Positions 25,565-32,422 of a stretch of 64,000 nt of DNA are shown one piece after another. Below the pieces are notes generated by a model, which did not search any database, was not told the DNA's origin, and saw nothing but the letters and a program-made list of their open reading frames with translations. The position numbers and the translations under genes were made by a program. This DNA is from Candidatus Chlorohelix allophototropha (GTDB taxonomy: Bacteria > Chloroflexota > Chloroflexia > Chloroheliales > Chloroheliaceae): assembly GCF_030389965.1 (NCBI RefSeq), contig NZ_CP128399.1:62001-126000 (forward strand), written 5' to 3'. Numbering within the stretch: the stretch's first letter is position 1; the number at the start of each line of letters is the position of its first letter.

Positions 25565-26719
25565 ATGAAGGTTAGTTGCCTGCAAGAACAACTCAGCAAG
25601 GGCTTGTCGGTAGTCGGGCGTGCCGTTTCCACCAAGACTACATTACCGGTTTTAAATCATATTCTGATTGCTACCGAAACTACCGATGATGGCGGGCGGT
25701 TAAAGTTGGCTGCGACTAATCTTGAAATCAGTATAACCTACTGGGTGTCGGCGCGTGTGGATGAACCGGGCGAAATCACTATACCGGCGCGCCTTCTTTC
25801 TGATTTTGTTTCCAGCCTCGGCAATGAACAAGTACATATGAGCCTTGATGAACAAACCCTTTCGCTCAATGTACGTAGCGCTCGTTATGAAGCCAATATA
25901 AAGGGTATTCCCGCCGAAGATTTCCCAACCCTACCAAATGTAACCAATCCCGGCAATAGCGCCGAAATCGCTTCTAATGTTTTCCGGGAGGCTGTGAGTC
26001 AGGTGGCTTTTGCTGCCAGCACCGATGAAACTCGCCCGGTATTGACCGGACTTTATGCCAGTTTTAACGGTGATAAAGTCACTATGGCGGCAGCGGATAG
26101 TTTCAGACTTGCGGTTAAAGAAGCTTCTTTGCTATCTTCGGTAAGCAATAATTTCAGTATAATTCTGCCTGCTCGCGCTATGTTAGAGCTTTCCCGTATT
26201 GTTAGTGACGATGATTCGCCGATCGAAATCAGCGTTACTGCCAATAGGAGTCAGGCTTTGTTCAAAGCGCAAGGGATTGATTTTACCAGCAGCTTGATTG
26301 AAGGGAGTTTCCCCAATTTCCAGCATATCATCCCCAAACGGTTTGATACCCGCACCTTGATTAGTACCGCCGATTTGCTCAAAGCCGTTAAGGTATCCAG
26401 CTTGTTTGCGCGGGATAGCGGCGGCAATATAATTCGGATGGCGGTTACTCCGGGCGAGGATATAACTCCCGGTAGCGTTATGCTGACGGCTAATGCGGCT
26501 GAAGTGGGCGATAACCGCAACGAGCTTGAAGCGACGGTAGAGGGACAGCCCGCCCAGATCGCTTTTAACGCCAAATATTTAACCGATGTTCTAGGAGCGA
26601 TAAACACCGCGCAGGTTGCCATCGAACTCCAATCTCCTAGTAATCCGGGCGTTATCAAACCGGTAGGCAAAGAGGATTACACCCACGTAATTATGCCGAT
26701 GCACCTCGCCAATCGCTAG
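25565..26719 (+). CDS. dnaN: DNA polymerase III beta subunit (sliding clamp)
   Basis: Forms the dimeric ring that tethers the replicative polymerase to DNA. 384 residues from the ATG at 25565, the usual length for the family. AAAAGGAG lies 10-17 bases upstream, whereas an in-frame start at 25457 would add 36 unrelated residues and run over the promoter. Typical clamp text: L-P-V-L-N-H-I-L, P-A-R-L-L-S-D-F-V, F-P-T-L, T-D-E-T-R-P-V-L-T-G, D-S-F-R-L-A and the C-terminal M-P-M-H-L. dnaA is not adjacent. A hairpin separates it from ligA. Confidence 0.97.
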   Translation: MKVSCLQEQLSKGLSVVGRAVSTKTTLPVLNHILIATETTDDGGRLKLAATNLEISITYWVSARVDEPGEITIPARLLSDFVSSLGNEQVHMSLDEQTLSLNVRSARYEANIKGIPAEDFPTLPNVTNPGNSAEIASNVFREAVSQVAFAASTDETRPVLTGLYASFNGDKVTMAAADSFRLAVKEASLLSSVSNNFSIILPARAMLELSRIVSDDDSPIEISVTANRSQALFKAQGIDFTSSLIEGSFPNFQHIIPKRFDTRTLISTADLLKAVKVSSLFARDSGGNIIRMAVTPGEDITPGSVMLTANAAEVGDNRNELEATVEGQPAQIAFNAKYLTDVLGAINTAQVAIELQSPSNPGVIKPVGKEDYTHVIMPMHLANR

Positions 26720-26755: not shown

Positions 26756-28839
<2,084 letters not shown>

Positions 28840-29167: not shown

Positions 29168-29384
29168 CTTTCTGCTAGCATCTTATCAATTTACCGGCTG
29201 TTTCCTCCCCGGTGTTTTCTGCTACGTTTAAACAGTTTATCCGGTATTCAAATTCTCCGATTTTTTGAAAATTGGCGTAATTCGCGTAATTTTTTTGTAT
29301 AGCCTGCGTTTTATTAAGTAGAAACCTACTGATAGTGTTGGTATGAAGAGTTCGCAACAAATTAGTAAACGCAGGAGTAATCAA

Positions 29385-30350
29385 ATGAAATCCTCAAGCT
29401 TTTTTTCTTCACATCGTCGTCTGTTTCTTTTCGGCTCAATCGCGCTGCTTGTGCTGCTGGTTGGTTCAGTGGCAATAGGTATAATGGCAAGCCCCAGAGT
29501 AGGAAATGTTTTTGATGAGGTTTCGAGCGGAATTGGCTATGCGCCGCAACCCACCGCTGCTGCCGCCGGTTCTGCCGCTAAAGCGCCCGCACAGGATTAT
29601 GCTAGCGGCTCAACCTCTACAAGTTCTGGCAGCTATAATATAGGGACAAGCACGGACAAGATGATAATCCGCAATGCTACCTTAAATGTGACCGTAGAAA
29701 ATATGGAAAAGACGCTGGCTGATATTCGGGCGCTGGTGGCGCAGCAACAAGGTACGATATTTAGTAGCAATACTACTGTCCGCAATGAACAAACATATGC
29801 CACTTTGGTGTTGCAGATTCCATCCGGCGCGTTTGATGAAACAATGACCCGCCTACGCGCTCTGGCTTATAAAGTGGATAGCGAAAATACTACCAGCCAG
29901 GATGTCACCGAAGAATATGTTGATTTGGACTCGCAAATGCGTAACCTTAAAGCAACCGAAGCTCAGTTGTTAGACTTGCTGAAAAAGGCTACTAACGTGA
30001 ATGAAACGCTGACGGTTCAACGCGAATTAACCAACGTTCGCGGCGAAATCGAGCGTCGGCAAGGCAGAATGAACTATTTGCAGAAAAAGAGCGATTATTC
30101 GCTGGTAACTCTCAATATTTCGCCTAAAGGCGCACCCTCTACATTGAAAGTGGGCAATAACTGGGACTTCGGCTTAATCTTGTCGGATGCGTGGGAAGGT
30201 TCTCTGCGTGGTTTGCAGGGACTGGCAACCGTAACCGTAACCCTCGCGGTATATGGCATTTGGCTTGTGCCTTTGCTAGTACTGGGCTTCTACTTCGGCA
30301 GGAAATTCTACCGTCGCTTCCGCTCACTCGCTTCGCAGCAAACTAATTAA
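29385..30350 (+). CDS. DUF4349-domain membrane protein
   Basis: 321 residues from the ATG at 29385, which has GGAG ten bases upstream; an in-frame ATG at 29343 has no such site. A signal-anchor helix at about 12-35 is followed by an Ala/Ser/Gly-rich linker, the DUF4349 domain (K-M-I-I-R-N-A-T-L-N-V-T-V, then V-Y-V-D-L-D-type E-E-Y-V-D-L-D-S-Q-M-R-N-L and T-V-Q-R-E-L-T-N-V-R-G-E-I-E), a coiled coil and a C-terminal membrane helix at about 284-306. The family is found as surface lipoproteins or membrane proteins; its function is unknown. Confidence 0.85.
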   Translation: MKSSSFFSSHRRLFLFGSIALLVLLVGSVAIGIMASPRVGNVFDEVSSGIGYAPQPTAAAAGSAAKAPAQDYASGSTSTSSGSYNIGTSTDKMIIRNATLNVTVENMEKTLADIRALVAQQQGTIFSSNTTVRNEQTYATLVLQIPSGAFDETMTRLRALAYKVDSENTTSQDVTEEYVDLDSQMRNLKATEAQLLDLLKKATNVNETLTVQRELTNVRGEIERRQGRMNYLQKKSDYSLVTLNISPKGAPSTLKVGNNWDFGLILSDAWEGSLRGLQGLATVTVTLAVYGIWLVPLLVLGFYFGRKFYRRFRSLASQQTN

Positions 30351-30357
30351 ATCGAGT

Positions 30358-30404
30358 AAGGCTGGACTGAGTATAAATAAAATTCTTAGCCCAGCCTTAA
30401 TCTT
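30358..30404 (+). terminator. Hairpin after the DUF4349 gene
   Basis: AAGGCTGG (30358-30365) pairs with CCAGCCTT (30391-30398), with CTGAG/CTTAG extending inside, followed by AATCTTTT. A plausible but T-poor terminator that isolates the parAB promoter region. Confidence 0.6.
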
Positions 30405-30420
30405 TTACTAATAAAGCTAT

Positions 30421-30556
30421 TTATCCACAATTGACTCTCGTTTTCCACAAAATATCCCCATTTATCCACATTATGGAAAGCAGATTGCGGCTTAGGCTTA
30501 AAGCTGTTAAAATTAACCTACTTTAATAGGATAATTTAATTTATAAAGAAGCTTCA
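30421..30556. promoter_or_regulatory. DnaA-box cluster plus AT-rich segment (candidate oriC)
   Basis: Perfect TTATCCACA boxes occur at 30421-30429 and 30462-30470, with a one-mismatch box TTTTCCACA at 30441-30449. All are on the same strand at 20- and 21-base intervals, close to two helical turns. A strongly AT-rich stretch follows at about 30500-30556, then parA. dnaN and ligA lie 4-5 kb upstream. This is either oriC or a DnaA-controlled parAB promoter. dnaA itself is not in the window. Confidence 0.55.
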
Positions 30557-30560
30557 GGTT

Positions 30561-31334
30561 TTGAAGAGCAAAATTATCGCAATTGCGAATCAGAAAGGTG
30601 GTGTGGGTAAAACCACTACCGCCGTAAGTCTTAGTGCGGGTTTGGCTGCCGAAGGCTACCGTATATTGCTGGTAGATAGTGACCCACAGGGGAATGCTAC
30701 CGGTAGTCTTGGTATTAACAAGCGCGAGTTGGAAGTATCGCTTTACGAGGTGCTGGTGGGCGAAAGTACCGCTACTCAAGCAATACTGGCTTCTGGTAGG
30801 GAAAGGCTGGAACTGTTACCCGCTTCGGTAGAATTGGCGGGCGCAGAGGTAGAGCTTACCAGTTTGACCGATGATGAGCGTGCCTTTCGTTTGAAAATGG
30901 CGTTGGAGCCTGTACGTTCTCGCTTTGACTATATCCTGATCGATTGCCCGCCTTCGCTAGGTCAAATAACTGTGAATGCGCTGACTGCTGCTGATGGTGT
31001 AATCATTCCGATCCAGTGCGAATATCTGGCGTTGGAAGGCTTGACACAGCTAAAGAATACAATTGATCTGGTAACAGCCGCGCTCAACCCTCGGCTGACC
31101 ATTTTTGGCATCATTATGACGATGTATGATGGGCGTACCAACCTAGCGTTGCAAGTGGTTGAAGAAGTCAAAAAGTATTTTCCGGAGCAAATATTCAATA
31201 CGGTTGTACCACGTAGTGTGCGCTTGAGTGAAGCTCCCAGTTTCGGGCAGTCTATTTTCGAATATGACCCGAATAGTCGAGGGGCACAGGCGTACAAAAT
31301 TCTGACACGCGAGATGGTAGCACGCATTAAGTAG
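30561..31334 (+). CDS. parA: Chromosome-partitioning ATPase ParA/Soj
   Basis: Walker-type ATPase that moves ParB-bound origins over the nucleoid. 257 residues, TTG start. Deviant Walker A K-G-G-V-G-K-T-T near residues 12-19, the A'-motif V-D-S-D-P-Q-G-N and the Walker B-like I-L-I-D-C-P-P-S-L are all present. The text matches the short chromosomal Soj type without an N-terminal regulatory domain. parB follows after 11 bases. The promoter region holds three DnaA boxes. Confidence 0.96.
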   Translation: MKSKIIAIANQKGGVGKTTTAVSLSAGLAAEGYRILLVDSDPQGNATGSLGINKRELEVSLYEVLVGESTATQAILASGRERLELLPASVELAGAEVELTSLTDDERAFRLKMALEPVRSRFDYILIDCPPSLGQITVNALTAADGVIIPIQCEYLALEGLTQLKNTIDLVTAALNPRLTIFGIIMTMYDGRTNLALQVVEEVKKYFPEQIFNTVVPRSVRLSEAPSFGQSIFEYDPNSRGAQAYKILTREMVARIK

Positions 31335-31345
31335 AGGGGCAAGAG

Positions 31346-32422
31346 ATGGCTAAGGCAAGAGGCGGTCTGGGTCGCGGTCTGAATGCACTGATACCGGGGG
31401 CAATTCCTGCTCGTGAGGTGGAAGAAACAAAACCATCCCTCGACGATGAAAACGAGGAGTCCCTTAGTGCTGCTCCGATTTCTGACACTCCACCTGAAAC
31501 TGCCTTGAGCAAATTGTCGGAAGTTCGCAAAATCGGTCTATTAACTGTACCGATTACTAGTATTGCGCCTAACCCATACCAGCCCCGTAAAAAAATTGAT
31601 CCGGATGTGTTGGAAGAACTGGCAAATTCAATTCGGGTTCATGGTTTGGTGCAACCTCCGGTGGTAAGTTATAACCCCGATTACGACCCAAACAATCATG
31701 GGGAAGAGCCTGCAACAGTTGCTGACGGGGTTAAGAAAGAATATCGCGCCCGTTACCTGTTGATTGCCGGAGAGCGTCGCTGGCAGGCTGCAAAACTGAT
31801 TGGGCTTACCACTATTCCGGTTGTAGTCAAAGAAACAACCCCGTTACAGATGCTGGAACTGGCAATAGTTGAGAATATCCAGCGTGCCGACTTGAACCCA
31901 CTTGAAGAGGCATACGCCTACCGCCAACTAGTAGATGAATTTCGTCTCACTCAAGAACAGGTGTCGGAGAAAGTTGGTAAAAGTCGCACGGCTGTTACCA
32001 ATTCGCTACGCTTGCTAGATTTGCCTAAAGAGATTCTTGATGCATTGAGTGATAATCTGTTCACCGAAGGTCATGCCCGTGCCTTGCTAATGGCAAAAGA
32101 TAATCGCGACAGGTTGCGCTTAATGAACCTGATTATCGAGAAAGCTATGAGCGTGCGCCAAACCGAGGAAACAGCTCGTCGGATGAATACAGCCCACGCT
32201 GCCCGTGCCTATAACGATGAGGCTGAGCCTGAAATGCGCCAGAAACAACGCATTTCCGAGCTTGAAACCAGTTCTCTTGAGCAAAAATTCCGAGATGCGC
32301 TTAGCATGCAGGTCGAATTAACCCGCAGCAAGCGAGGGGGTAAATTGGTGGTTCAATTCTATAGTGAAGAAGAACTTGAATGGCTTTACCGGCGTATAAC
32401 CGGTGAAGATTTTGGCATATAA
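31346..32422 (+). CDS. parB: Chromosome-partitioning protein ParB/Spo0J
   Basis: CTPase clamp that loads at parS sites. 358 residues. The N-terminus has G-R-G-L-N-A-L-I-P, a ParA-stimulating type motif. The nucleotide-binding domain includes P-N-P-Y-Q-P-R-K and the G-E-R-R-W-Q-A-A box, interrupted by an unusual ~25-residue acidic insertion just before it (N-P-D-Y-D-P-N-N ...). The helix-turn-helix reads Q-V-S-E-K-V-G-K-S-R-T-A-V-T-N-S-L-R-L-L. The C-terminal dimerisation domain is present. I did not find a consensus parS site in the window by eye. Next gene starts four bases after the stop. Confidence 0.95.
   Translation: MAKARGGLGRGLNALIPGAIPAREVEETKPSLDDENEESLSAAPISDTPPETALSKLSEVRKIGLLTVPITSIAPNPYQPRKKIDPDVLEELANSIRVHGLVQPPVVSYNPDYDPNNHGEEPATVADGVKKEYRARYLLIAGERRWQAAKLIGLTTIPVVVKETTPLQMLELAIVENIQRADLNPLEEAYAYRQLVDEFRLTQEQVSEKVGKSRTAVTNSLRLLDLPKEILDALSDNLFTEGHARALLMAKDNRDRLRLMNLIIEKAMSVRQTEETARRMNTAHAARAYNDEAEPEMRQKQRISELETSSLEQKFRDALSMQVELTRSKRGGKLVVQFYSEEELEWLYRRITGEDFGI

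Follow-up and report, generated by a model that had tools for sequence, protein, structure and literature searches.

An origin-type DnaA-box array near dnaN, ligA and parAB, away from the main origin of the Candidatus Chlorohelix allophototropha chromosome

The array and its gene neighbourhood

The window considered here is the whole 64,000-nucleotide stretch of DNA that was analysed (C1:62001-126000) from a Candidatus Chlorohelix allophototropha genome (G000) of 6,086,194 bases in five contigs, which include C1 (2,961,161 bases), C2 (2,453,413 bases) and C4 (241,389 bases). These lengths fit the replicons of 2.96 Mb, 2.45 Mb and 241 kb described for 'Ca. Chlorohelix allophototropha' L227-S17 (PMC10972752). 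Between a DUF4349 protein gene and parA, the window contains three DnaA boxes that together span C1:92421-92470 (Table 1). As an earlier, sequence-only reading of this DNA had described, the three boxes lie on the same strand in a 20/21-bp register, and Pfam matches to dnaN, ligA, parA and parB bear out the neighbourhood that it had named. Its remark that dnaA is not adjacent also holds, as this gene sits at C1:1, approximately 92 kb from the array. The AT-rich DNA reported 3' of the boxes is likewise present, with 84% A+T in the 50 bp from position 30498 against 53% window-wide, and it coincides in part with the presumed promoter and leader of parA. Relative to the presumed transcription start of parA, the box centres are situated at about -95, -75 and -54, although the promoter itself was not reported by a consensus promoter scan. 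With respect to an unwinding element, the gap contains AT-richness alone: a DnaA-trio scan of positions 30351-30560 returned 0 candidates, and a motif like that of the basal unwinding system (BUS) was found on neither strand at the array. A second ParA, 47% identical, is encoded on the smallest replicon (G000 C5:27552-28301).

Table 1. Coordinates of the array and of the neighbouring features, in window positions
Feature	Position	Strand	Details
dnaN, sliding clamp	25574..26719	+	Pfam
ligA, NAD-dependent DNA ligase	26797..28839	+	Pfam
DUF4349 protein gene	29343..30350	+	directly before the array gap
Intergenic region, DUF4349 gene to parA (210 bp)	30351..30560		contains the array and the leader of parA; unwinding motif not found
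DnaA box 1	30421..30429	+	TTATCCACA
DnaA box 2	30441..30449	+	TTTTCCACA; starts 20 bp past the start of box 1
DnaA box 3	30462..30470	+	TTATCCACA; starts 21 bp past the start of box 2
Presumed parA promoter	30485..30513	+	TTGCGG-N17-TAAAAT, from the block (A)AAGCTGTTAAAAT common to relatives; -35 weak
parA	30561..31334	+	Pfam; TTG start codon assumed
parB	31346..32422	+	Pfam

Taken singly, boxes show no enrichment in the window, where TTWTNCACA occurs 7 times against 6.1 expected. Their close tandem arrangement is rare. The pattern TTATCCACA-N0-30-TTWTCCACA has one occurrence in 6,086,194 bases, which is the window array, and the tandem pair TGTGGANAA-N9-15-TGTGGANAA is limited genome-wide (6.09 Mb) to this array and one dnaA-side array, with 0 matches in the control. 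No tandem DnaA-box pair was found on the 2.45-Mb second chromosome (C2) or on the smaller replicons C3-C5, and these four may thus use another initiator or looser boxes. A census of C1, which covered 352 boxes at no more than one mismatch in the 1.236 Mb sampled of its 2.961 Mb, places the window array as the third densest cluster, with 4 boxes per 300 bp (the fourth being TTACCCACA, within parA), behind the two clusters that follow and precede dnaA (8 and 6 boxes, respectively). The lack of enrichment of single boxes in the window speaks for a chance cluster of box-like words, but the probability of such a cluster is practically nil and it is rejected here: tandem pairs occur at just two sites in 6.09 Mb, the exact register is common to 58 genomes of the class, and the synteny of the array is kept in three relatives, as described below.

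Replication origin of the chromosome

The array had been put forward as a candidate oriC, to be checked by the GC skew of the whole genome. Raw GC skew of C1 is uninformative (permutation p 0.71), and third-codon skew corrected for strand was therefore used, in which the coding-strand effect was removed across 1029 open frames from sampled C1 stretches. The AT3 skew is most extreme precisely at C1:0 (permutation p 0.013; 1029 frames), and the GC3 skew alone has its best position at 2.77 Mb, which is not significant (p 0.07). The change point of the keto skew is placed at +2 kb, with a bootstrap 5-95% range of -8 to +10 kb (170 frames between -100 and +126 kb). The corresponding weighted squared error is 206 for a switch at 0, 430 for a switch at 92.4 kb and 477 for no change, and position 0 beats 92.4 kb in 400/400 bootstraps in this range and in each of two wider ones. 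All skew bins are positive from 0 to 420 kb and all are negative from -420 kb to 0, and no second switch was found at 92 kb. Together, the change point at +2 kb and the signs of the bins show that the chromosome switches at dnaA, with 92.4 kb preferred in no bootstrap, which is the outcome that the sequence-only reading had itself named as speaking against its proposal. The main origin of the chromosome is thus at dnaA, and not at the window array 92 kb away. This call is founded on the strand-corrected AT3 and keto3 skews, which reflect the history of replication and not its present firing.

The dnaA gene is the first gene of C1 and has DnaA boxes on both of its sides, in the two clusters of 8 and 6 counted above. 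Approximately 470 bp past the gene lies the sequence TTCCCACA-TTTCCAC-TCCCT-CTATTACTG, followed by AT-rich DNA, in the order tandem boxes, spacer, DnaA-trio, AT-rich DNA. This dnaA-side site, with its CTATTACTG element, resembles the order of box, spacer and DnaA-trio in BUS origins of the Bacillus subtilis type (PMC8287927). The window site shares DnaA boxes and AT-rich DNA with the same origins but, unlike them, has no DnaA-trio motif within reach. Because CTG stands as the third trio of the dnaA-side motif, the strict DnaA-trio scan missed this motif as well, and a looser pattern caught it. A similar motif is present past dnaA in G001, G003, G004 and G008, and none was found at the dnaA of G002 with the looser BUS-like pattern. 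The first BUS-like regex match in G008 was spurious, and the real motif of that genome is another stretch past dnaA. The DnaA ATPase profile also gave nine matches of equal score to 271-codon frames (C1:682103, 1451441, 1950044 and 2111447, and five on C2-C4), and these frames probably represent copies of a helper gene of the IS21 type.

No parS was found near the window array. Matches to parS with one mismatch occur at about the control rate (14 versus 8), and only a three-site cluster was used; the only clustered sites are three within 80 bp at C1:2871100-2871180 (L100 10100-10180). This cluster lies 90 kb to the left of dnaA and parAB lies 92 kb to its right, which puts the midpoint at dnaA, the arrangement that a symmetric inversion around the origin would leave.

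The triplet in relatives and across the class

Within the family, the triplet of G001, G003 and G004 follows dnaN-ligA-DUF4349, as in the window, and parAB is located on another contig. In G001, which belongs to the sister genus, contig C87 carries both dnaA, at 40 kb, and the array, at 177 kb. The parA genes of these three genomes keep the block AAAGCTGTTAAAAT and have no boxes. In G002, three boxes in a 21/21 register stand ahead of parA, and the distance from boxes to promoter is nearly equal in that genome and in G000. Boxes and promoter are therefore together in 2/5 family members (G000 and G002) and apart in 3/5. The retention of the array without parA in G001, G003 and G004 argues that it is kept for its own sake, and not merely as an operator of parA.

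A triplet of three tandem boxes was found in 58/158 genomes of the class, all 58 of which have one in the exact 20/21 register; the G002 array, whose boxes end in C, is left out of this number. Matches amount to one per genome and two in the present genome, with controls empty save for G108 (3). Although 19-23 bp were permitted per step, the boxes start at 0, 20 and 41 in 58 of the 59 listed triplets, including that of the window, and the sole exception among those listed is the dnaA-side array of this same genome (22/22). The spacers of the window array also fit the consensus of 53 triplets from other families, with 0/5000 spacer shuffles fitting as well. The array is adjoined in 16/20 other-family loci (L220-L239) by a DUF151-like gene, which is presumably bfn, and 7/20 also have parA within the fetched stretch. 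The array of the genus g2 (L208, L209 and L210) is denser than that of the window, with one more box at +10 and with TTAT(G/A)CACA at about -22.

Upstream of the triplet, and on the opposite strand, a motif of tandem boxes and CTA is present in 29/30 loci of one other family (f6), a count that takes in L152 (at -90, which looks spurious) and L151 (at -212), and in 9/14 loci of other families. It is situated mostly near -144, and about 1% of shuffles match the pattern, which was written after inspection of the sequences. This unwinding-like motif was found at neither the window array (0/1) nor the arrays of G001, G003 and G004 (0/3).

A comparison is offered by Chloroflexus aurantiacus (G039), a single contig in which the triplet lies at 1,967,010 (C1:1967010-1967059; L183 2010-2059), parA at 1,969,363 and dnaA at about 0.7 kb, such that the triplet is 2.3 kb from parA and about 2 Mb from dnaA. 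The AT3 skew of this genome has its extreme at 1.96 Mb, with 0/300 permutations as strong (40 stretches of 20 kb), and the GC3 skew has its extreme at 1.98-2.08 Mb (p 0.007), with the opposite sign at dnaA. Like the window array, that of C. aurantiacus is a same-strand 20/21 triplet whose middle box, TTTTCCACA, is the weaker one, and it lies near parAB and far from dnaA. Unlike the window site, it is accompanied by a tandem-box/CTAC motif approximately 144 bp upstream, by further boxes, by parS at the start of parA and by a skew switch. The earlier proposal of an origin-kind array beside parAB holds for at least one other family of the class, but not for the oriC of the present chromosome. According to the genome paper, the C. 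aurantiacus J-10-fl chromosome measures 5,258,541 bp, dnaA is Caur_0001 and oriC is drawn at twelve o'clock (PMC3150298). The skew switch at about 1.96 Mb, beside parAB and bfn, differs from that drawn position.

Possible roles of the array and their meaning

Several features of the window array would suit a working oriC, as its triplet and register are the same as those at the skew-defined origin of C. aurantiacus, its flank is AT-rich, and dnaN and parAB are neighbours of origin type. Such a role is nevertheless extremely improbable, given a skew switch at +2 kb and not at 92 kb, three boxes only and no unwinding motif where dnaA has fourteen boxes together with one, and the absence of parS nearby, the sole parS cluster being 90 kb beyond dnaA on the opposite side. 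The array might instead be a secondary origin, or one on standby, that is silent or seldom fires and persists as a relic of an ancestral parAB-linked origin. Register and neighbourhood are again of the origin type, but the missing unwinding motif and the lack of a second skew switch at 92 kb make this very improbable.

A role as a simple DnaA operator of the parA promoter, in which phased DnaA upstream of the -35 element activates or represses parAB and thereby ties partition to initiation, deserves more weight but is still unlikely. In this genome and in G002, the boxes closely precede a promoter-like block that relatives share, and a precedent is provided by the initiator RctB, which acts on parAB2 transcription in Vibrio (PMC6399470). 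However, the parA genes of G001, G003 and G004 have the promoter-like block without boxes while their array persists elsewhere, and the consensus scan lends the promoter no support.

The favoured explanation, which is considered fairly probable, is that an origin-type DnaA array has been parted from its unwinding element, is not the main origin, and serves as an origin-proximal regulatory or titration site by dnaN-ligA(-parAB), perhaps with a tuning effect on parAB. The window array probably derives from an origin array, as a copy of it or as a remnant. DnaA binding is predicted here from the boxes: spaced two helical turns apart (20/21 bp), they would align DnaA protomers on one face of the DNA, and DnaA would be expected to bind the triplet cooperatively on that face. 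With no unwinding motif at the array, loading of DnaA would not be followed by strand opening, and the array would then act as an origin-proximal DnaA-binding site for regulation or titration. In this species, where the presumed parA promoter closely follows the array, bound DnaA may also modulate parAB transcription, a step that is weakened because 3/5 family members hold the array away from parA.

Among known systems, the datA and DARS sites of Escherichia coli are similarly non-coding clusters of DnaA boxes away from oriC. Loci of this kind titrate DnaA or change its nucleotide state, and they have a box layout and partner proteins of their own. The cisII and cisMP elements of Deinococcus radiodurans also resemble it as AT-rich DnaA-binding sequences upstream of parAB; these serve secondary replicons as origins and parS-like sites, and contain iterons together with non-canonical boxes (PMC7671480). 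The window array, by contrast, has three canonical boxes and no iterons, and is located on the primary chromosome. In titles and abstracts on Chloroflexota oriC and on DnaA boxes and parAB promoters, no description of such an array was found, although DoriC may already place the Chloroflexus origin.

More tentatively, the class may possess one ancestral origin design, composed of an unwinding module and a divergent 20/21 triplet, whose location has shifted between dnaA and parAB/bfn. Its two halves would have parted in the present lineage, with the unwinding origin at dnaA and the triplet near dnaN-ligA-parAB as a separate DnaA-sensing array through which partition is linked to the level of the initiator. 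The shared register could, alternatively, be a matter of functional convergence instead of descent. If the ancestral design did move in this way, the origin of C. aurantiacus adjoins parAB, and not dnaA as the genome paper drew it. For the Chloroflexota, contigs that begin at dnaA can mislead about the origin, and so can DnaA boxes close to parAB. The presence or absence of the unwinding motif at a 20/21 triplet would serve as a sharp sequence test for tracking origin moves class-wide. In the favoured reading, the two tasks of an origin, DnaA loading and strand opening, would be set apart within one natural genome.
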